From the NCBI RefSeq assembly GCF_008245225.1, contig NZ_VTAW01000009.1, positions 1-64,000 of the forward strand: a stretch of 64,000 bases of DNA, read 5' to 3'. The notes beneath the pieces were generated by a model. The model was not told the DNA's origin. It saw only the letters and a list, made by a program, of their open reading frames with translations, and searched no databases. The translations under genes and the position numbers were made by a program. The DNA is from Natrialba swarupiae. GTDB lineage: Archaea; Halobacteriota; Halobacteria; Halobacteriales; Natrialbaceae. This document shows positions 12,876-38,668 of this stretch, piece after piece. Every line of letters starts with the position of its first letter. Within the stretch, counting starts at the first letter, position 1.

Positions 12876-13700
12876 GTGAAAAATGAAACGACCCCACTCG
12901 ATGTGACCACTCGAGGTCCGGGAGAGCCGGAGGTTGTGGTTGTTGGTGGTATCCACGGCGACGAGACCGGCGGCGTCCGTGCAGTACGCCGTTTGCGGGA
13001 GGCGGACCTCGACCTAAAGCGGGGTGTCGCGTTCGTCGTCGCCAATCCGGCCGCAGTCGACGCCGGTGAACGATATCTGGACTCGGACCTCAATCGTGCC
13101 TTCCCTGGCAACCCAACCGGTGATCGTGAGCAACGACTCGCCGCTCACCTCCGAAAGTTGGTTCAGGACCGTACGACACTCTCACTGCACGGTACCCACT
13201 CCCAGCCCACACCGTTTGCACTCATCCACCGTTCTCAGCCCCGCCAGTTCGATCTTGCAGCGCGGATGCCCGTCCCACACGTCGTCGACCACTGGGGTGT
13301 AAACGAGGGGGCGATCACGTCCTGTGGACTCTCCGTCGAAATCGAAGTCGGTCCACAGGGCACAGAGGAAGCGGCCGTGGCCGCCGAACACCAAGCCGAA
13401 GCGTTTCTCAAGCTAGTGGATGCTCTGCCTGGTGAACCACCCACCGCAGACCCGAATTTCTTCCATATGGCCGACCCGATTGGAAAACCGTCCGGGGTAT
13501 CCTACGAGGTTCACGTCACGAATTTCGAATCAGTCCCAGCGGGGACGACGTATGCAAGCGTCGATGGACGGGGACTGATCACAGATGACCCGTTTCACCC
13601 GATATTGATGTCAGCTGATGGATACTCGGAGATCTTCGGCTACAAGGGAGCCAAAATAGCGGACTCACTCGAACGGGTTCGAGAGATATTGCTCAATTAG
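12876..13700 (+). CDS. AstE/AspA-family deacylase (zinc carboxypeptidase-like)
   Basis: 274 residues. Zinc motif GGIHGDETGG (His, Glu), the substrate-binding SDLNRAFPG, LSLHGTHSQPTPF (third zinc His) and SVEIEVGPQGT (catalytic Glu) are all present, so it should be an active member of the succinylglutamate desuccinylase/aspartoacylase group. These enzymes remove an acyl group from an N-acyl amino acid or act on small peptides. The start ATG follows an A/T-rich leader, unlike its neighbours, and base use is less G+C-rich than the surroundings. It lies 18 bp upstream of the GCS2-type ligase, which suggests a synthesis/hydrolysis pair acting on one metabolite. Confidence 0.85.
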   Translation: MKNETTPLDVTTRGPGEPEVVVVGGIHGDETGGVRAVRRLREADLDLKRGVAFVVANPAAVDAGERYLDSDLNRAFPGNPTGDREQRLAAHLRKLVQDRTTLSLHGTHSQPTPFALIHRSQPRQFDLAARMPVPHVVDHWGVNEGAITSCGLSVEIEVGPQGTEEAAVAAEHQAEAFLKLVDALPGEPPTADPNFFHMADPIGKPSGVSYEVHVTNFESVPAGTTYASVDGRGLITDDPFHPILMSADGYSEIFGYKGAKIADSLERVREILLN

Positions 13701-13718
13701 GAACGAGGTGCGATCACC

Positions 13719-14822
13719 ATGAGCCATAGTCAGAAGGATAACAAATCGATGCAAAAAAGCATAGAAGTAGAGTACTGGGTCGTCGATCAGGACGGCGCGC
13801 TCGCGGATCCAGGGGAGCTCACGGAGTATTCGGCGTTCGTCGAGGAGGAGTTCGTGTATCCGCTACTCGAGGTGAAAACCCCACCATGTGAGACGTATTC
13901 GGCACTGAGATCGACGTTCGTCGAACTACTAGACGAGCTCCTCCTCAAAGCCGACGAACTCGACAAAATGCTCGTCCCGCTCGGGACGCCACTCAATAGT
14001 GAATCGATCGAGGTTCGACCCAGCGAACGAAGCCGGATACAAAAGCGTGTGCTCGGCGATAACTTTGCCTACGCGAAACACTGTGCCGGGACGCATCTCC
14101 ATTTCGAGAAGCGAAACGTCACAGATCAACTCAACGTACTTGCCAGCCTCGATCCGGCGCTATGCCTGTTGAATTCCTCTCCGTACTTCCAGGGGGAGCG
14201 GGTTGCAAACAGTGCTCGCGCATATATTTACCGGAAGAAGTGTTATGAATACTTCCCCCTACACGGCCAGCTTTGGGATTACGTCAATACCGTCGGACAG
14301 TGGGAGAGACAACTCGACCGGCTCTTCGATTCGTTCAAACGAGCGTCCATGAACGAGGGAGTCGAAGAAAACGATATCGATGCCAGTTTCTCCCCACAAG
14401 ATATCGTGTGGACGCCAGTCAGATTACGTGACGAGATGCCAACCGTCGAGTGGCGCGCACCCGACACGTCGCTTCCGAGCCAGATTCTCCGTCTAGCCGA
14501 GGAAATCGGTACCATAATGGAGCAGCTCCATCACGCAGAAGTTCGTATCGAAGGCGCCACCGGTAACGTGACAGAAGAGAGAATCACGATTCCCGAATTC
14601 GATGCCGTACTTGACTACGTCGAGGAAGCGATACACGATGGGAGAGAGTCATCAGAGCTCTCTGCGTACCTCGAGCGAATGGGGTTCGACGTTCGGGAAT
14701 ACGAGCCACTCACACAGAAAATTGACGGGCACGAGTACGTCAGTCTTGACGAAGCCCGTGAAATTCGCCTTCGATACGGGAGACGACTGCGACGAGACGT
14801 GGATGACTTAACGAGAAGTTGA
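13719..14822 (+). CDS. GCS2-type glutamate-cysteine ligase family protein
   Basis: 367 residues. The start IEVEYWVVDQDG is the ATP/Mg strand of the glutamate-cysteine ligase family 2 (YbdK-like) fold. LLEVKTPPCETYSAL, AGTHLHFEK and VEWRAPDTSLPSQ are further family motifs. Haloarchaea use gamma-glutamylcysteine as their main thiol and its synthetase belongs to this superfamily, but several paralogues exist and another carboxylate-amine pairing is possible. It is translated 18 bp after the deacylase gene. Codon use is less G+C-rich than average here. Confidence 0.8.
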   Translation: MSHSQKDNKSMQKSIEVEYWVVDQDGALADPGELTEYSAFVEEEFVYPLLEVKTPPCETYSALRSTFVELLDELLLKADELDKMLVPLGTPLNSESIEVRPSERSRIQKRVLGDNFAYAKHCAGTHLHFEKRNVTDQLNVLASLDPALCLLNSSPYFQGERVANSARAYIYRKKCYEYFPLHGQLWDYVNTVGQWERQLDRLFDSFKRASMNEGVEENDIDASFSPQDIVWTPVRLRDEMPTVEWRAPDTSLPSQILRLAEEIGTIMEQLHHAEVRIEGATGNVTEERITIPEFDAVLDYVEEAIHDGRESSELSAYLERMGFDVREYEPLTQKIDGHEYVSLDEAREIRLRYGRRLRRDVDDLTRS

Positions 14823-30625: not shown

Positions 30626-32005
30626 TCACTCCCGCTCGCCCGCACCTAACGCCGCTTCGCCGACCTTTTCGTGGCCCTCGATGACTTCTTTTCCGCCCAT
30701 GTACGGCCGCAGCGCCTCGGGAATCGTGACGGTGCCGTCTTCGTTCTGGTAGTACTCGAGGATCGCCACCATCACCCGGGGGAGCGCGAGGCCGGAGGCG
30801 TTCAGGGTGTGCAGGTACTCCGCCGACTCGTGGCGCTCGGGGCGGTATCGGAGCCCGGAGCGTCGGGCCTGGTAATCCTCGAAGTTAGAAGCACTCGAGA
30901 CCTCGAGCCAGCGTCCGCCTTCCTCGGGGCCGTCCTCGAAGTCGTCGCCCGGTGCCCAGACCTCGATGTCGTAGGTCTTCGCGGAGGCGAAGGTGAGGTC
31001 GCCGGTACAGAGTTCGAGGATGCGGTAGGGGAGCCCGAGCCGTCGGAGGACTGCCTCGGCTTCGTCGAGGAGTCCCTCGAGGCGGTCGTAACTCTCCTCG
31101 GGTTCGACGAAGTTGACGAGTTCGACCTTGTTGAACTGGTGGACGCGGACGATACCGCGAGTCTCGGTGCCGTGTTCGCCGGCTTCACGACGGAAGTTCG
31201 GCGTATAGGCCTGGTGTTTGAGCGGAAGATCGTCTTTCAACAGGATCTCGTTTGCGTACATGTTGGTGACGGGGACCTCCGCAGTGGGACAGAGCCAGAG
31301 ATCTTCTTCCTCGTAGGAATCGTCGTTGCTGGCACCGAGACGGTAAGCGTCGTCGGCGAACTTTGGCAGCTGACCGGTCCCTCGCATCGACGCGCTCTTG
31401 ACGGGGATCGGCGGGAAGAGATCGACGTACCCCTGTTCTCGGTGGACATCCATCATGAACTGGACCAGCGCGTGCTCAAGTCGGGCGCCGTCGCCTTTGA
31501 GGAAGTAGAAGCCGGATCCGGTGGTCTTGGCGGCGCGTTCCTCGTCGATGACGTCGAGATCTTCGCCGAGTTCGTAGTGGGGGACGACGTCGTCGGGAAG
31601 TTCGCGCAGGTCGTCGAACCCCCAGCGTCGGTCTTCGACGTTGTGACGCTCTTCGAGCCCGAGGGGAACGCTCTCGTGGGGGACGTTCGGGACCTCGAGG
31701 AGCCGTTCCTGGAGTTCGTCGTGAAGTTCGTCGGCCTCGGCCTCGACGGCCTCGATTTCGTCTTTGAGCTCCCTGGATCGTTCGATCGCCTCCTCTCGCT
31801 CGTCGTCTTTTCCCTCGGCGACCAGTTTTCCGATCTGCTGGGTGATCTCGTTGCGATCGTGGCGCAGGTCGTCGCCGCGGGCTTTGAGTTCCCGCCATCG
31901 CTCGTCGATCTCGAGAATCTCGTCGAGGTCGACGTCCGCACCCCGATTCTCGAGGGCGTCGCCTACCTCATCGGGATTCTCGCGCAGGTAAGTCCGGTCG
32001 AGCAT
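30626..32005 (-). CDS. serS: seryl-tRNA synthetase
   Basis: 459 residues starting MLDRTYLRENPDEVGDALENRG at ATG 32003-32005. N-terminal long coiled-coil arm (about 30-105) binds tRNA-Ser; class II motif 2 is FRREAGEHGTETRGIVRVHQFNKVE, motif 3 near the C-terminus ASNFEDYQARRSGLRYRPE...HTLNASGLALPRVMVAILE. This is the bacterial/eukaryal-type SerRS used by haloarchaea rather than the methanogen type. Essential for translation. An upstream frame to 32095 adds a basic non-native tail and is rejected. Confidence 0.95.
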   Translation of the reverse strand: MLDRTYLRENPDEVGDALENRGADVDLDEILEIDERWRELKARGDDLRHDRNEITQQIGKLVAEGKDDEREEAIERSRELKDEIEAVEAEADELHDELQERLLEVPNVPHESVPLGLEERHNVEDRRWGFDDLRELPDDVVPHYELGEDLDVIDEERAAKTTGSGFYFLKGDGARLEHALVQFMMDVHREQGYVDLFPPIPVKSASMRGTGQLPKFADDAYRLGASNDDSYEEEDLWLCPTAEVPVTNMYANEILLKDDLPLKHQAYTPNFRREAGEHGTETRGIVRVHQFNKVELVNFVEPEESYDRLEGLLDEAEAVLRRLGLPYRILELCTGDLTFASAKTYDIEVWAPGDDFEDGPEEGGRWLEVSSASNFEDYQARRSGLRYRPERHESAEYLHTLNASGLALPRVMVAILEYYQNEDGTVTIPEALRPYMGGKEVIEGHEKVGEAALGAGERE

Positions 32006-32136: not shown

Positions 32137-33345
32137 ATGGACCCGCTCGAGGGGGAGGCGTCGTCGGTATCGGTCGAGTACGAGCCCGTGAGTGTCAAAG
32201 AGATCCTCATCGAGATGAAAGACACTGCGGAGTTGCTGATCGATCTCTCCTATTCGGCGGTGTTACACCGCAACGAGGACCTCGCGAGGGAGGTGCTTCG
32301 TCTCGAAGAGCGGATGGACGTCCTCGAACTCAAAGGGCGGATGAGTCTGATGATGGCCGTCCGCAACCCCGGCGACGCCGAACAGCTCGCACCGGTGCTG
32401 GGCATCGTCACCGCGGCCGACGACATCAGCGACGCTGCCGGCGACATCGCGAAGATCGTCTTAGAGGAGATGGGACTGCCGGAGGCGATGCGCGCGGCGC
32501 TCCCCGAGGCGACCGAGACGCTCGTCCGGGGCGTCGTCGACGTCGATTCGGCACACGCCGGCCGGACGCTCGAGGAGATCGACCTCGAGTCCGAGACCGG
32601 CGTCCGCGTCATCGCGCTCCGCCGGGGCGACGACTGGTTGCTCAATCCCGGCCCGGAGACGACTATCGAACCGGAGGATGTCGCGTTCCTCCGCGGCCCG
32701 GATCCGGCAATCGAGGGCGTCTACGAGTCGTTGACCGGCGACACCTACGAGTTGCCAGTCGTCGACGCACCAGACGTCGCTGATCTGGAGCGTGCCGTCG
32801 ACACCATCGTCCACATGAAGAACCTCTCGGAACTCGCGGTCGATCTCGCCTACAGCAGCGTGCTGTTCGATAGCGAGAACTTAGCCGAGGAGGTGAGAAA
32901 CCTCGAGGTCGAAGTCGACGCCCTCGAGTCGCGATTCGAGGCCTGGACGCTGCGGGCGGCCGCGGACGCCGAGGATCCGATCTCGCTACGCGGGCTGATC
33001 CGGCTTGGCAGCAGTACCGAGGTGATCAGCGACGCCGCAGTCGACATCACCGAGGGCGTGCTTCGCGACCTCGACGTTCACCCGGTCGTCCAGCTTGCAG
33101 TCCAGGAAAGCGACGAGATCATCACGAGCGTCGAAGTCGAAGCGGGAAGCGAACTCGACGGCACCGCGGTGACCGGCGGCGTCCCCGACGCGGAATCGAC
33201 TATGTCGGTAATCGCCATCCGCCGGCCGGGCGACGGCTGGCTACTGGTCGGCGACTCGGACGTCGAACTCCAGGCCGGTGACGTCCTCATCTCGAAAGGG
33301 ACTCGGACGGCCGGCGAGGCGTTCGACGCGCTCTCGGCGGCGTGA
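32137..33345 (+). CDS. PhoU/TrkA-C tandem protein, potassium-channel-associated type
   Basis: 402 residues made of two similar halves. Each half has a PhoU-like helical bundle (MKDTAELLIDLSYSAVLHRNEDL and MKNLSELAVDLAYSSVLFDSENL) followed by a TrkA-C (RCK_C) ligand-binding domain (AGRTLEEIDLESETGVRVIALRRGDDWLLNPGPETTIEPEDV; DGTAVTGGVPDAESTMSVIAIRRPGDGWLLVGDSDVELQAGDVLISKG). Such proteins regulate cation transport, probably by binding cyclic di-AMP or nucleotides, though I cannot see the ligand. ATG at 32137. Divergent from serS. Confidence 0.85.
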   Translation: MDPLEGEASSVSVEYEPVSVKEILIEMKDTAELLIDLSYSAVLHRNEDLAREVLRLEERMDVLELKGRMSLMMAVRNPGDAEQLAPVLGIVTAADDISDAAGDIAKIVLEEMGLPEAMRAALPEATETLVRGVVDVDSAHAGRTLEEIDLESETGVRVIALRRGDDWLLNPGPETTIEPEDVAFLRGPDPAIEGVYESLTGDTYELPVVDAPDVADLERAVDTIVHMKNLSELAVDLAYSSVLFDSENLAEEVRNLEVEVDALESRFEAWTLRAAADAEDPISLRGLIRLGSSTEVISDAAVDITEGVLRDLDVHPVVQLAVQESDEIITSVEVEAGSELDGTAVTGGVPDAESTMSVIAIRRPGDGWLLVGDSDVELQAGDVLISKGTRTAGEAFDALSAA

Positions 33346-33532
33346 TCGTCGTCGGTCCCGTTCGGCCGTCGCCACCGGTGCACTCGAGTGAGAGATTTAC
33401 CGGCTCTCGACTCGACGGTGCGGTCAGAAGCCGGCGAAAACGGTGACCATTCGTGCCGTAGGAGAGACGTAACTCCGGGACGAGCCTCATAGCGATCGGA
33501 TACTTTTCATCCTCCTTGGAGGGGCCACTGTC

Positions 33533-34759
33533 ATGGATTCGGACGGGCCGTCGGTACTGGTCCTCGACGGCGATTACGATACGTCGCTGGTGATCGCGAG
33601 GGAGTTGACCGAGGATCTCGACGCAACGGTGGTTGGAACGGGGACGACGCGACACAGCCGGCTTCTTCGGTCGACGTACTGCGATTACGGCGCGGTCGTC
33701 CCGCCGTCGGACGATCCGGCCTACGCCGACGCGGTGGCCGGGGTGATTCGTTCGGCTCGCCCCGACGTGGTCTTGCCGGTCGGCTACGAATCGATGGCGA
33801 GCGTCGACGGGATCCGGTCGGCGATCCCCGAGGACGTCTCGCTGTGTCTCCCGCCGTCGGACTCGTTCCGGGCCGCCGTCGACAAGGCGGAGACGCTCCA
33901 ACAGGGGAGTCAACTCGGGATCGAGACACCGGTCGACTACTCGAGACGCGTCGCAGATCTCGCGGCCGACGGTCGGCCGGACGTCTCGGATCACCTCCCG
34001 TTTCCGGTGTTTCTCAAGGCGCGTCGGGAGAACGGCTCGGCGACCACGTCACCCGTTTCCGATCCCGAGGCGTTCTGGGAGAGCTACGACCGGATCGCGG
34101 CGGCCGCGCCACGCGGTGACGTTCTCGTCCAGGAGTACGTCGATGGCTCGGATTCGACGTACGGCTGTGGCGTGCTCTGTTTCGACAACGCGGTCGAACT
34201 GACGTGCGTTCACGAGGAGGTTCGGTCGGTGCCACGTCACGGCGGGAGCGGAACTCATCTCCGCCTCGAGTCCGAGGAATCGGTCGCTCGAGACGCCACG
34301 CGCCTGCTCACGACGATCGGCTGGGACGGCGTCGCCCTCGTCGAGTTCAAGCGCCGCGCCGACGGAACGTTCGTCCTCATGGAGATCAACCCGAAGTTCT
34401 GGGCGTCCTACGCACTGGCCAGCCGATTTGGCTACCGGTTCGCCTCGACGATCGTCGCGGATCGTCTCGATCTGGCGGTCGAGACGCCGGTCGGCTCACC
34501 GGCCGAGCGCGGCGAGATGGTGTTTCCACTCCGCGAGTTGCAGTTCCAACTCGAGAATCGAGAAGAGGCCTCCCCCGCTGAGTACGCGGCGACCGTCTGC
34601 AGGCGAACCGCGGCCTGGGACGTCGACCACCGAGATCTGGGTGCCTGGCTGGTTCCACCGGTGTCGCTTCTGGCGAAGCTTCCGACTATCGACGTTTCGT
34701 CCCCGACGAGCGATACTGTATCAACCGTGCGGGACGAACGGAAGGGGGTCGAGGCGTGA
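33533..34759 (+). CDS. ATP-grasp domain ligase
   Basis: 408 residues. Rossmann-like N-terminal VLVLDGDYDTSLVIARELTED, then ATP-grasp features: FPVFLKARRENGS (Lys for ATP phosphates), VLVQEYVDGSD (Glu), ALVEFKRRADGTFVLMEINPKFWASY (Glu-x-Asn metal-binding end). This is the carboxylate-amine/thiol ligase family (pyrimidine/D-Ala-type relatives). Substrate unknown. The GTG of the next gene overlaps its stop by 4 bp. It is first in a three-gene cluster with a barrel protein and a FemAB-like transferase. Confidence 0.82.
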   Translation: MDSDGPSVLVLDGDYDTSLVIARELTEDLDATVVGTGTTRHSRLLRSTYCDYGAVVPPSDDPAYADAVAGVIRSARPDVVLPVGYESMASVDGIRSAIPEDVSLCLPPSDSFRAAVDKAETLQQGSQLGIETPVDYSRRVADLAADGRPDVSDHLPFPVFLKARRENGSATTSPVSDPEAFWESYDRIAAAAPRGDVLVQEYVDGSDSTYGCGVLCFDNAVELTCVHEEVRSVPRHGGSGTHLRLESEESVARDATRLLTTIGWDGVALVEFKRRADGTFVLMEINPKFWASYALASRFGYRFASTIVADRLDLAVETPVGSPAERGEMVFPLRELQFQLENREEASPAEYAATVCRRTAAWDVDHRDLGAWLVPPVSLLAKLPTIDVSSPTSDTVSTVRDERKGVEA

Positions 34760-36042
34760 GCCGGTTCTCGAGTCTCCCTCGGCTGGGCCGGTCGGCGGAT
34801 CACGACTCCGGCGGCGAGCGAGTCGATTCCGGGAGTCTGGAGACACTCGAGTCGGACCCGTACTACTGGCTCTGTCGAGACGCGCTCCGCTACGCGAGCG
34901 AGCGCGAGTACACCGGCTGGGACTACGCGGACGGGCTCAGCAGCGCCCTCGTTCGGTCGCTTCCGTTCGAACACAGGTACCTGAACCTCGCCGTCCAGGA
35001 GACGATCAAGCGCGCGCCAGTCAACCTCCGGCCGCTGTTTCTCGTCGGACAGCGGCGAAACTACAAGGGGGCGGCCCTGTTCGCCCTCGCGAACCTCGAA
35101 CTCTACGCGCTGACCGGCGAAGCCGAGTACGCCGGCGACGCCGAGGAACTACTCGAGTGGCTGCTCGCCGAGTCGAACGACTGGTGTTCGGGCTTCGGCG
35201 GTGGCGGCCACCGCCACCCACTGCAGGACCTCTCGAGTGCGACCGCCTCGACGCCGGGGGAAGTCTCCGGGGTCGTATCGACGACGTACGCCGTTCGGGC
35301 GCTCCTGCGAGGGGCCGACGTCCTCGCCGAACCCCGGTACGCCGACGTCGCACGGACCGCCCGCGCGTTCGTCCTCCGTGACCTCGAGTACACCGACATC
35401 GACGAGGGCGCGCGGATCAACTACACCGCCTCGCGGGACGGCTCAGCGGGCGGGGGCGAGTCGTATACGTTGAATGCGAACGCGATCGGGGCCCGCCTCT
35501 TGCTCGAGTTGGCGGACCGCTTCGACGATCAGCGATCGCTCGAGGCGGCGACGGCGATCCTCGACTACGTCGCGAGCACGCAGACGGCCGTCGGCGGCTG
35601 GATGTACACCGATCCGCCCACCGCCTCTCACCTGTCGATGGACAACTTCCACAACGGGTTCATCCTCGAGTCGTTCCTGCGCTACCGTGAGGTGACCGGC
35701 GACGACCGCTACGCCGTAACCCTCGAGCGCGGTCTCGAGTTCTACCGCGAGCGGCTGTTCGACGGCCCCGCGCCGCGGTGGGACGAGTCGAGTACCTACC
35801 CAAGAGACGTCCACGCGGCCGCACAGGGGATCGTCCTCTTTGCCGAACTGGGCGACCTCGAGTTCGCCCGCCGGATCGTCGACTGGACGCGCGAGGAACT
35901 ACACGCCGGCGGCGGCCGGTTCTACTACCAGAAACGCCGGTTGTACACGAAGCGCTTTACCCTGATGCGGTGGTGTCAGGGTTGGATGGCGTTTTCGCTC
36001 TCGCGGTATCTCCGGCGCCGGTACGAACTCGAGCGGGCGTAG
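34756..36042 (+). CDS. (alpha/alpha)-barrel glycan-enzyme-like protein
   Basis: 428 residues from GTG at 34756, overlapping the upstream stop (GTGA). Helix pairs with conserved aromatic and glycine turns (FGGGGHRHPLQ, GVVSTTYAVRALL, YTLNANAIGARLLLELA, MYTDPPTASHLSMDNFHNGFILESFLRY, GLEFYRERLFDG, FYYQKRRLYTKRFTLMRWCQGWM) suggest a six-hairpin glycosidase, epimerase or lyase fold. It has no signal peptide, so the substrate may be cytoplasmic or lipid-linked. The clustering points to cell-surface glycan or glycoconjugate work. Confidence 0.72.
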   Translation: MSRFSSLPRLGRSADHDSGGERVDSGSLETLESDPYYWLCRDALRYASEREYTGWDYADGLSSALVRSLPFEHRYLNLAVQETIKRAPVNLRPLFLVGQRRNYKGAALFALANLELYALTGEAEYAGDAEELLEWLLAESNDWCSGFGGGGHRHPLQDLSSATASTPGEVSGVVSTTYAVRALLRGADVLAEPRYADVARTARAFVLRDLEYTDIDEGARINYTASRDGSAGGGESYTLNANAIGARLLLELADRFDDQRSLEAATAILDYVASTQTAVGGWMYTDPPTASHLSMDNFHNGFILESFLRYREVTGDDRYAVTLERGLEFYRERLFDGPAPRWDESSTYPRDVHAAAQGIVLFAELGDLEFARRIVDWTREELHAGGGRFYYQKRRLYTKRFTLMRWCQGWMAFSLSRYLRRRYELERA

Positions 36043-36132
36043 TTCGCCCACTGGCTCGAGGCCAGTAAGGCGACTGTACGCTGGGAAGCCAGTTCGTAAT
36101 TATGGTGTCGTCTCTCGAACCGCCCGCACTAG

Positions 36133-37149
36133 ATGGGGCTCGACGTTCGTCACGTAGACAGTATCGAGACGGTCAACCGAAATCAGTGGAACAACGTCGT
36201 CGACCAGTCGGATCTCAGCTGCGTCTATCATCGCTACGAGTGGCTTCGGGCAGTCGAGGAGGGACTCCCTCACGAGCCAAAACACCTCGTCGTCTCGAAA
36301 CGCGGGAACCCGATCGCCGTCTTCCCGAACTTCGTCACCGACCTCGGGCGGATCAACCGGCTGAGTTCGATCAGGCCCGGCTACGGTGGGCCGGTCACGA
36401 TGACCGACGAGGAGGAGGCACTCGAGTTGCTCCTCGACGCCGTCGAGGAGCTGTGCACGGGGCGGATCCTCTTCGACGAGATCAGGGCGTACGACCAGAA
36501 CTACGTCCGCTATCACGAACTGCTCGAGGCCAAGGGGTACCGACCGACGATCCTCACCTGCCGATTCACGCTGGATCTCTCGCGTGGCTGGGAGACGCTG
36601 TTCTCCGAGATGGACGGAGAACGCAGGCGGGGGATCAGACGCGGCCACGACTCCGACTTCGAGGTCGTCGAGGAGGATCTCGACGGGCGAACACTCGAGG
36701 AGTTCTACCACGATTACGCGGCGGTGGCCGACCGCGTCGGCCTGCCGACGCATCCGCGATCCTTTTTCAGGGAGCTACACGAGTTCGACGACCGGATCGT
36801 GGTGTTCTCGCTCCGTGTCGACGGCGGAACGCAGGGCAGGTACATGTACCTGTTAGACGACGAACAGTCGACGCTCCAGCACCTCTTTACGGCCGTTACG
36901 GAGGACCACTTCGAGTACCACGCCCCGGAGTTGCTCCACGAACACGCGATCAAGTGGGGAATCGAGGAGGGCTACGACACCTACGAACTGCGCGGATCGC
37001 CGCCGGATTTCCGAAACGGCGTCTTCCGGTTCAAGGAGTACTTCGGGGCCGAGACGATCCCCCTTCTCGTCTACGAGCGCGGCCACCCCGCGCCCGCCCT
37101 GCCGGTATTGAACGCCGGGCGGACGATCTCGAGACGGCTCGAGTCCTGA
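36133..37149 (+). CDS. FemAB/GNAT-like aminoacyl or acyl transferase
   Basis: 338 residues. N-terminal NQWNNVVDQSDLSCVYHRYEWLRAVEE and the C-terminal GYDTYELRGSPPDFRNGVFRFKEYFGAETIPLLVYER form the two GNAT folds of FemX/FemAB-type (peptidoglycan bridge and GNAT-like) transferases. Bacterial members add amino acids to lipid-linked precursors using aminoacyl-tRNA; archaeal members are of unknown substrate, as archaea lack murein. It is separated by 90 bp from the barrel gene on the same strand. Confidence 0.78.
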   Translation: MGLDVRHVDSIETVNRNQWNNVVDQSDLSCVYHRYEWLRAVEEGLPHEPKHLVVSKRGNPIAVFPNFVTDLGRINRLSSIRPGYGGPVTMTDEEEALELLLDAVEELCTGRILFDEIRAYDQNYVRYHELLEAKGYRPTILTCRFTLDLSRGWETLFSEMDGERRRGIRRGHDSDFEVVEEDLDGRTLEEFYHDYAAVADRVGLPTHPRSFFRELHEFDDRIVVFSLRVDGGTQGRYMYLLDDEQSTLQHLFTAVTEDHFEYHAPELLHEHAIKWGIEEGYDTYELRGSPPDFRNGVFRFKEYFGAETIPLLVYERGHPAPALPVLNAGRTISRRLES

Positions 37150-37895: not shown

Positions 37896-37970
37896 CCAGT
37901 CTTGATTCGCTCACGAAACGTGGGCCACATGCAGCCCAACATGTATTGCACAGCGGCCCATAAGTTAACT

Positions 37971-38240
37971 ATGGCAGCCGAGAACGTCCCCGAGTCGACG
38001 ACCGTCAGCGATCGAGGGATGGTCACGATTCCGGCATCGTTGCGCCGGCGTCTCGACATCGAGGCGGGCGACAAAATTCGGTGGGACCTCGACGAGGACG
38101 GGAACCTTACGGTGGAAGTCGTCAAGCAGCGACACGGTGCGTTCGACGATTTCGATCCCGTTTCGATGGGCGGCGATGGGCTAGAAACGCACGATCTGGC
38201 AGGTCACGAATCCGACTCCGCGCGCTCGGAGGATTCGTAA
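37971..38240 (+). CDS. vapB: AbrB-type antitoxin VapB
   Basis: 89 residues from ATG at 37971. TVSDRGMVTIPASLRRRLDIEAGDKIRWDLDEDGNLTVEVV is a SpoVT/AbrB swapped-hairpin DNA-binding domain. The acidic C-terminus probably binds the toxin. The stop overlaps the start of the PIN gene by one base (TAATG), typical of toxin-antitoxin operons. It likely represses its own promoter. Confidence 0.85.
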   Translation: MAAENVPESTTVSDRGMVTIPASLRRRLDIEAGDKIRWDLDEDGNLTVEVVKQRHGAFDDFDPVSMGGDGLETHDLAGHESDSARSEDS

Positions 38241-38668
38241 TGCGAGTCGCGGCCGTCGATACGGCGGTTCTCGTCGGGATGGTCGATGCCGACGACCGGA
38301 ACCACGCCCCCGCGACGGAGATCGTTCGAGCGATGGACCACGGTGACCTCCCGGTGGGACGTGTGATCGACTACGTCATCCTCGAGACGTTGAACTGGAT
38401 CCACAGCCGCCACCGTCACGAGAAAGCACACGAGACCTACGCTCGCCTGAACGAATCGGCCGGATTCGAGATCCACCACACAGCACAGAAGGACTTCCTG
38501 CGAGCACTCGAGCTATTCGAAACCCATGAGGGACTCTCATTCGGCGACGCATCGATCGTCGCGTACATGGAACGTGAAGGAATCGAATACGTCTATTCGT
38601 TCGACGACGACTTCGATGCCGTGGACGGAATTACTCGGTTGGACACTCCACATAATCCGTTCGGGTGA
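38240..38668 (+). CDS. vapC: PIN-domain toxin VapC
   Basis: 142 residues starting MRVAAVDTAVLVGMVDADD. Conserved acidic residues Asp7, Glu49, Asp103 and Asp122-124 fit the PIN nuclease active site, with LSFGDASIVAYM as the third motif. VapC toxins cleave tRNA or rRNA. It is coupled to vapB by TAATG. Both genes sit between two copies of the proline dehydrogenase 3' end. Confidence 0.88.
   Translation: MRVAAVDTAVLVGMVDADDRNHAPATEIVRAMDHGDLPVGRVIDYVILETLNWIHSRHRHEKAHETYARLNESAGFEIHHTAQKDFLRALELFETHEGLSFGDASIVAYMEREGIEYVYSFDDDFDAVDGITRLDTPHNPFG

Follow-up and report, generated by a model that had tools for sequence, protein, structure and literature searches.

A conserved ATP-grasp, (alpha/alpha)6-barrel and FemAB gene trio of Natrialba swarupiae as a candidate tailoring module for haloarchaeal surface polysaccharides

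The first 64,000 nucleotides of contig NZ_VTAW01000009.1 of the haloarchaeon Natrialba swarupiae (hereafter the window) contain a trio of genes encoding an ATP-grasp carboxylate-amine ligase-like protein, an (alpha/alpha)6-barrel protein with a sugar-epimerase/GH76-like fold and a FemAB-fold (double GNAT) transferase. FemAB enzymes are familiar from bacterial murein and a few antibiotics. We propose, with a probability of about 0.5, that the trio is a tailoring module for a surface polysaccharide, or a lipid-linked glycan, of haloarchaea in which amino sugars, (di)amino-uronic acids or both occur. The combination of families, its haloarchaeal spread and the barrel family were not described in the open-access papers searched, in which FemAB together with haloarchaea was not found either; taken singly, the proteins are members of known superfamilies. 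The three open reading frames, the overlap and the gap between them (Table 1) were found exactly as stated in an earlier note on this DNA, and its family calls were confirmed by profile scans for ATP-grasp and FemAB and by the AlphaFold model for the barrel. By codon statistics, all three look like real genes. The GTGA shared by the first two suggests, as far as the sequence tells, translational coupling of the ATP-grasp and barrel genes. Since the trio is separated by 187 bp from a PhoU/TrkA_C gene upstream and faces a convergent gene downstream, it is a candidate for a self-contained transcription unit.

Table 1 Coordinates of the trio, its junctions and a FemAB gene of Halococcus morrhuae. 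Positions refer to the window unless a locus is given.
Feature	Position	Strand	Remarks
Intergenic stretch 5' of the trio	33346..33532		187 bp, presumed promoter
ATP-grasp carboxylate-amine ligase-like protein	33533..34759	+	408 aa, ATG start
Overlap GTGA	34756..34759	+	4 bp, ATP-grasp stop overlapping barrel start
(alpha/alpha)6-barrel protein, sugar-epimerase/GH76-like fold	34756..36042	+	428 aa, GTG start
Gap, barrel to FemAB gene	36043..36132		90 bp
FemAB-fold (double GNAT) transferase	36133..37149	+	338 aa, ATG start
Halococcus morrhuae FemAB	L093:4515-5525		

Adjacency of all three genes is kept in 6 of 61 related genomes from three genera (all four Natrarchaeobius genomes searched, G016 and G017), with protein identities of 66-80% for the ATP-grasp and barrel proteins and 75-92% for FemAB. 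Therefore, the order of the trio is not due to chance, and the separation of the genes in relatives, which the earlier note had named as a refuting outcome, was not seen in close ones. G016 and G017 belong to the same family as the window. Beyond these genomes the trio breaks up into pairs, and ATP-grasp-barrel pairs extend to other families. An ATP-grasp gene followed by a barrel gene was found in Halostella (L069 and, with the same flanking genes, G042), in Halapricum (L053) and in a metagenome-assembled genome (MAG) of the Natrialbaceae (L120); in two genomes of one genus (G005 and G032) some 5 kb separate the ATP-grasp gene from the FemAB gene, with a flippase gene nearby and no barrel gene, and in G024 and G035 FemAB alone is located near flippase and methyltransferase genes.

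A scan of 84,980 species genomes with the barrel profile returned 126 relatives, and 79 loci were kept. Apart from a few unclassified archaea and a single MAG of the Desulfobacteraceae, all named relatives come from haloarchaea. By gene calling and clustering, 63 of 91 barrels had a FemAB-superfamily protein and 47 a NodB-like deacetylase no more than five genes away; ATP-grasp proteins were near 18 barrels, 12 of them adjacent. In an independent genome-wide count, 23 of 32 barrel sites had the start of a FemAB gene within 4 kb, in 17 of the 21 genomes, against an expectation of 0.21 for a random placement of roughly three FemAB copies in each genome. This context lends good support to a role of the FemAB-barrel pairing in surface glycans, which in our judgement is highly probable. 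Barrel paralogues with about 50-55% identity occur across haloarchaea. In a quick tree the barrel of the window fell into a supported clade of seven with those of Natrarchaeobius, G016, G017 and Halapricum, and the second Natrarchaeobius paralogue grouped with a large Natrialbaceae clade. Some islands encode, close to the main barrel, a further barrel of a divergent subfamily that is 33-36% identical to the window protein (L044:15847-17046, L045:3537-4730 and L075:8562-9821). The cluster of the Desulfobacteraceae MAG (L127:1414-7264) encodes a DUF354-like glycosyltransferase, the barrel, two more glycosyltransferases and a UDP-GlcNAc 2-epimerase, which suggests a transfer between domains.

The sites of barrel genes are often polysaccharide islands, with genes for a UDP-GlcNAc 2-epimerase, a UDP-sugar dehydrogenase, a NodB-like deacetylase, glycosyltransferases and a flippase. 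In Haloferax an operon with several 4-bp overlaps was found that encodes, in this order, a hexapeptide acyltransferase, a DegT/PseC-like aminotransferase, a Gfo/Idh protein, a UDP-sugar dehydrogenase, a UDP-GlcNAc 2-epimerase, a NodB-like deacetylase, the barrel and two FemAB proteins. The deacetylase of the islands carries HDVD, HGSYH-type and LWHPR motifs, which we take to be those of NodB-type deacetylases, and is weakly similar to VimE, a UDP-2,3-diacetamido-glucuronate deacetylase. The operon resembles Wbp-type UDP-2,3-diacetamido-uronate operons in that hexapeptide acyltransferase, DegT, Gfo/Idh, UDP-sugar dehydrogenase and 2-epimerase genes stand beside barrel and FemAB genes in the relatives, but these pathway genes are not located beside the trio of the window. 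In Halapricum, the same operon with an added glycosyltransferase gene extends to an ATP-grasp-barrel pair of the window type, whose barrel is 63% identical to that of the window, and this ties the trio to the chemistry of the Haloferax operon. In the genome of the window, a deacetylase was matched once, about 4 kb from the second barrel, and the single UDP-GlcNAc 2-epimerase is encoded elsewhere. The Haloferax operon is also present in Haloferax denitrificans ATCC 35960 (L115), whose exopolysaccharide is reported in a review to be composed of galactose and residues of 2,3-diacetamido-2,3-dideoxy-glucuronic acid (PMC3191746); operon and composition together support the sugar pathway. A secreted protein family adjoins barrels as well (L045:9787-12972 and L093:6796-8235), with a PGF-CTERM motif in the scanned copy (L045:9787-11268), and it is possible that it is a surface protein which carries or binds the glycan.

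The FemAB protein of the window passes the Pfam cut-offs of both Acetyltransf_6 (41.3 versus 22 bits) and FemAB (36.3 versus 24 bits). Its AlphaFold model is a double GNAT, and the best matches in the PDB were Sba18/Sbb17, followed by FemX, FemA and MprF, with E-values of 1e-15 to 1e-17 for Sba18/Sbb17 and FemX. Sba18 and Sbb17 are aminoacyl-tRNA-dependent peptide synthases that were solved with streptothrisamine. K301 of the window protein, a residue that all 34 homologues share, aligns with Lys305 of FemX. Functional precedent comes from Orf11 of the BD-12 pathway, which glycylates the amino-sugar antibiotic streptothrisamine in a Gly-tRNA-dependent reaction (PMC12945691). With the FemABX enzymes (FemX of Weissella, Orf11 and Sba18/Sbb17) the window protein shares the double GNAT fold, the Lys305 position, the size and the best structural matches; unlike them it is archaeal, from a domain without murein, and its gene partners encode an ATP-grasp enzyme and a sugar barrel. 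The best match in NCBIfam was TIGR03019, the FemAB of XrtA/PEP-CTERM exopolysaccharide systems, which is likewise of FemAB type and linked to polysaccharide genes, but with 52.7 bits the window protein stays far below the equivalog cut-off of 260.35. The window FemAB may be a tRNA-dependent N-aminoacyl transferase that acts on an amino sugar, for which we see slightly less than an even chance. That a seryl-tRNA synthetase encoded near the trio (30626-32005, minus strand), in a location kept in several relatives, is dedicated to charging tRNA for FemAB was considered and rejected: the SerRS N-domain has no other match in the genome, so the enzyme is probably housekeeping.

The barrel model (predicted local distance difference test, pLDDT, 91.4) is an (alpha/alpha)6 barrel whose entire chain aligned with cellobiose 2-epimerases (Z 32, 339 residues), GH76 mannanases (Z 31) and an unsaturated glucuronyl hydrolase (Z 27). 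Invariant or near-invariant residues are Y52, D59, N102, H154, Q157, N240, Y284, H292, D296, H299, D351, H353, R405 and W406. In the model, the conserved polar residues appear to sit at the N-terminal ends of inner helices or immediately ahead of them, where (alpha/alpha)6 barrels have their active sites. In a comparison with the two histidines of AGE, for which only the secondary-structure register was used, H299 was found at the N-terminus of an inner helix and R405/W406 with the last helix. A barrel without an active-site cleft, which the earlier note had named as a finding that would refute its idea, is not what the model gives: the fold is predicted with confidence, is that of sugar enzymes and has conserved polar residues arranged in a ring. 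Identity to AGE/cellobiose 2-epimerases and GH76 enzymes is 10-14%, their catalytic His or Asp pair is not recognisably kept as far as the register shows, and the Pfam cut-offs are not reached. Among 54 barrel members weak Pfam signals, mostly to barrels that act on sugars and uronates, were found for pectic acid lyase (24), GH76 (16), GH88 (8) and C5-epimerase (6, C5-epim_C, best E 0.0012), of which the window protein has GH76 only; GlcNAc_2-epim matched 1 of the 54 (best E 0.0018) and not the window protein. A sequence search of the PDB with barrel profiles gave only weak GH76 matches (E 0.02, with the first alignment) or chance matches. We tentatively suggest, by analogy to related folds, that the barrel uses the C5-proton chemistry of uronates, an assignment that falls clearly short of an even bet. 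That the barrel trims or recycles the glycan as a glycoside hydrolase or lyase is in our view unlikely: the GH76 fold and the weak GH76, GH88 and pectic-lyase signals would fit such an enzyme, but the barrel has no secretion signal, is encoded co-directionally with biosynthetic genes and, judged by helix register, lacks the paired aspartates of GH76 at the N-terminus of the equivalent inner helix.

The ATP-grasp protein reached 20.2 bits with CPSase_L_D2 (cut-off 19.8) and an E-value of 2e-16 with NCBIfam PRK12767. K162, E271, E284 and N286, at the positions of ATP/Mg ligands, are present and invariant among 14 island homologues. It shares the signatures of the ATP-grasp fold with PRK12767-type proteins but reaches no equivalog cut-off; the odds are even that an amino acid is one partner of the amide it would form. 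Since no hydrophobic segment and no signal peptide was found in any of the three proteins, they should act in the cytoplasm, and we propose that they would do so on nucleotide- or lipid-linked glycans prior to export. Amino-uronic sugars, as suggested by the observed operon and motifs, would be made first, and the NodB-type deacetylase, which is encoded elsewhere in the genome of the window, would free an amine. The barrel would then alter the configuration of a uronate in the glycan or otherwise process it, most likely through the C5-proton chemistry known from uronyl C5-epimerases and from pectate lyases with an (alpha/alpha) barrel. FemAB could shift an amino acid, possibly glycine, from aminoacyl-tRNA onto the free amine of the sugar and, finally, the ATP-grasp enzyme may form another amide, such as one that joins an amino acid to the carboxyl group of the uronate.

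Several observations weigh against the assignment of the trio to glycan tailoring with amino acids. FemAB and GNAT folds include acetyl-CoA-dependent enzymes, too, and the FemAB model is only of moderate confidence (pLDDT 75), with the lowest values around residues 289-301. The barrel matches no Pfam family above its cut-off (GH76 18.3 versus 25.9 bits). No glycosyltransferase, dehydrogenase or flippase gene adjoins the trio of the window, its FemAB belongs to a divergent subfamily with about 20-25% identity to the FemAB proteins of the islands, and the relatives of this FemAB in further genera (40-46% identity) are mostly encoded away from recognised glycan genes. The proximity counts of barrel and FemAB are not phylogenetically independent across related genomes. 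Finally, the review's summary of the exopolysaccharide of Haloferax denitrificans gives N-acetyl groups and the gluco configuration only, and neither an amino acid nor a C5-epimer (PMC3191746). In a rival reading, the same glycan module carries an ordinary N- or O-acyltransferase as FemAB, using for example acetyl-CoA, and an ATP-grasp enzyme for simple amidation. The full N-acetylation of this exopolysaccharide as quoted, without an amino acid, the match of the window FemAB to the GNAT family Acetyltransf_6 and the tandem GNAT acetyltransferases among the matches of the same fold search point in this direction, but the nearest structures are aminoacyl-tRNA-dependent and several orders of magnitude ahead of acetyl-CoA-dependent GNATs, and the position of FemX Lys305 is invariant; an acyltransferase without any amino acid attached therefore seems rather unlikely to us. 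We consider it even less probable that the product of the trio is a small metabolite of peptide-like or amino-sugar type, comparable to those of the streptothricin and dehydrophos pathways, and that its genes were recruited from glycan islands. FemAB-type enzymes are known from natural-product pathways, the closest FemAB structures come from antibiotic pathways and the lack of an adjoining glycosyltransferase or flippase gene would be explained, but ATP-grasp and FemAB genes of the window type are found near a flippase gene in a related genus, FemAB alone likewise in two more genomes, and the ATP-grasp-barrel pair of the window type adjoins the uronate operon in Halapricum. The idea in the earlier note, that a surface glycan (or lipid) is decorated with amino acids or peptides, is partly supported: the islands, the FemAB fold, the lysine and the nearest structures fit it, and the missing glycosyltransferase gene and the composition in Haloferax denitrificans do not. 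The trio of the window, with a FemAB subfamily of its own, looks like a satellite of the main polysaccharide islands, and the glycan role suggested for it rests on homology.

A role of the trio in protein N-glycosylation (Agl pathway), with the barrel as an iduronate-forming Agl32, is very improbable. Agl32, the D-glucuronyl C5-epimerase of the archaeon Halobacterium, shares its fold class with the barrel, and its homologue in Natronorubrum bangense is located in the aglB island (PMC13308652). Like Agl32 and AglQ of Haloferax, the barrel would be a helical-barrel sugar enzyme in haloarchaeal glycan assembly, but the comparison in Natronorubrum bangense places it outside the Agl32 family: the only match to the barrel profile is encoded on plasmid C3 and the only aglB on C1, and the barrel-like candidate beside aglB has no convincing similarity to the window barrel (BLASTP E 0.007; hhalign probability 19%). 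Furthermore, no WWDYG-type protein was found in any of 100 loci. An Agl32-like candidate (L134:14391-15509) had no match in its own genome, in a search that had no positive control and is uninformative. Neighbourhood analysis, as proposed for this cluster before, thus revealed exopolysaccharide islands around barrel and FemAB but no link to Agl, with no aglB nearby and a barrel that is not the homologue of Agl32.

A second connection to known chemistry is offered by Halococcus morrhuae, whose cell wall contains glycine and gulosaminuronic acid (PMC4187196); N-glycyl-glucosamine in this wall is attributed there to Steber and Schleifer, 1979 (PMC4187196). The composition was measured on strain CCM 859, and the genome is that of DSM 1307. 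In the latter (L093), genes for the barrel, a DUF354-type glycosyltransferase and FemAB lie within about 7 kb, barrel and FemAB about 4 kb apart, and elsewhere the genome encodes the diamino-uronate operon (a run of UDP-sugar dehydrogenase, Gfo/Idh, DegT and hexapeptide proteins), a flippase and a second FemAB. No gene work on the N-glycyl-glucosamine of Halococcus was found in the open-access literature searched.

Directly upstream of the trio, a duplicated PhoU-TrkA_C protein is encoded (32137-33345, plus strand), which was uncalled at the corresponding places in G001 and G017. Shortly downstream, a MazE/AbrB-type antitoxin gene followed by a PIN-domain (VapC-like) toxin gene (37929-38668, plus strand) forms a type II toxin-antitoxin pair. 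Another amide-forming/cleaving pair in the window, an aspartoacylase-like gene followed by a gene for a GCS2-type glutamate-cysteine ligase (12876-14822, plus strand), is located in the stretch with the lowest GC content of the window (0.56) and was possibly acquired.

In sum, FemAB and barrel are the first candidate genes for the N-glycyl-glucosamine of Halococcus, a cell wall whose glycine-sugars have been known since 1979. A broader and more speculative proposal, which we regard as somewhat unlikely, is that tRNA-dependent aminoacylation of surface amino sugars is widespread in archaea and carried out by FemAB together with an unnamed family of (alpha/alpha)6-barrel uronate epimerases and sometimes an ATP-grasp enzyme, and that this machinery would make the N-glycyl-glucosamine and gulosaminuronic acid of Halococcus. 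Haloferax and Halococcus are direct test grounds for the idea of a FemAB-barrel pairing. The members of the large barrel family, for which there is no Pfam family, may be uronate-modifying enzymes and, if the proposal is true, decoration of surface sugars driven by aminoacyl-tRNA would exist in Archaea as well.

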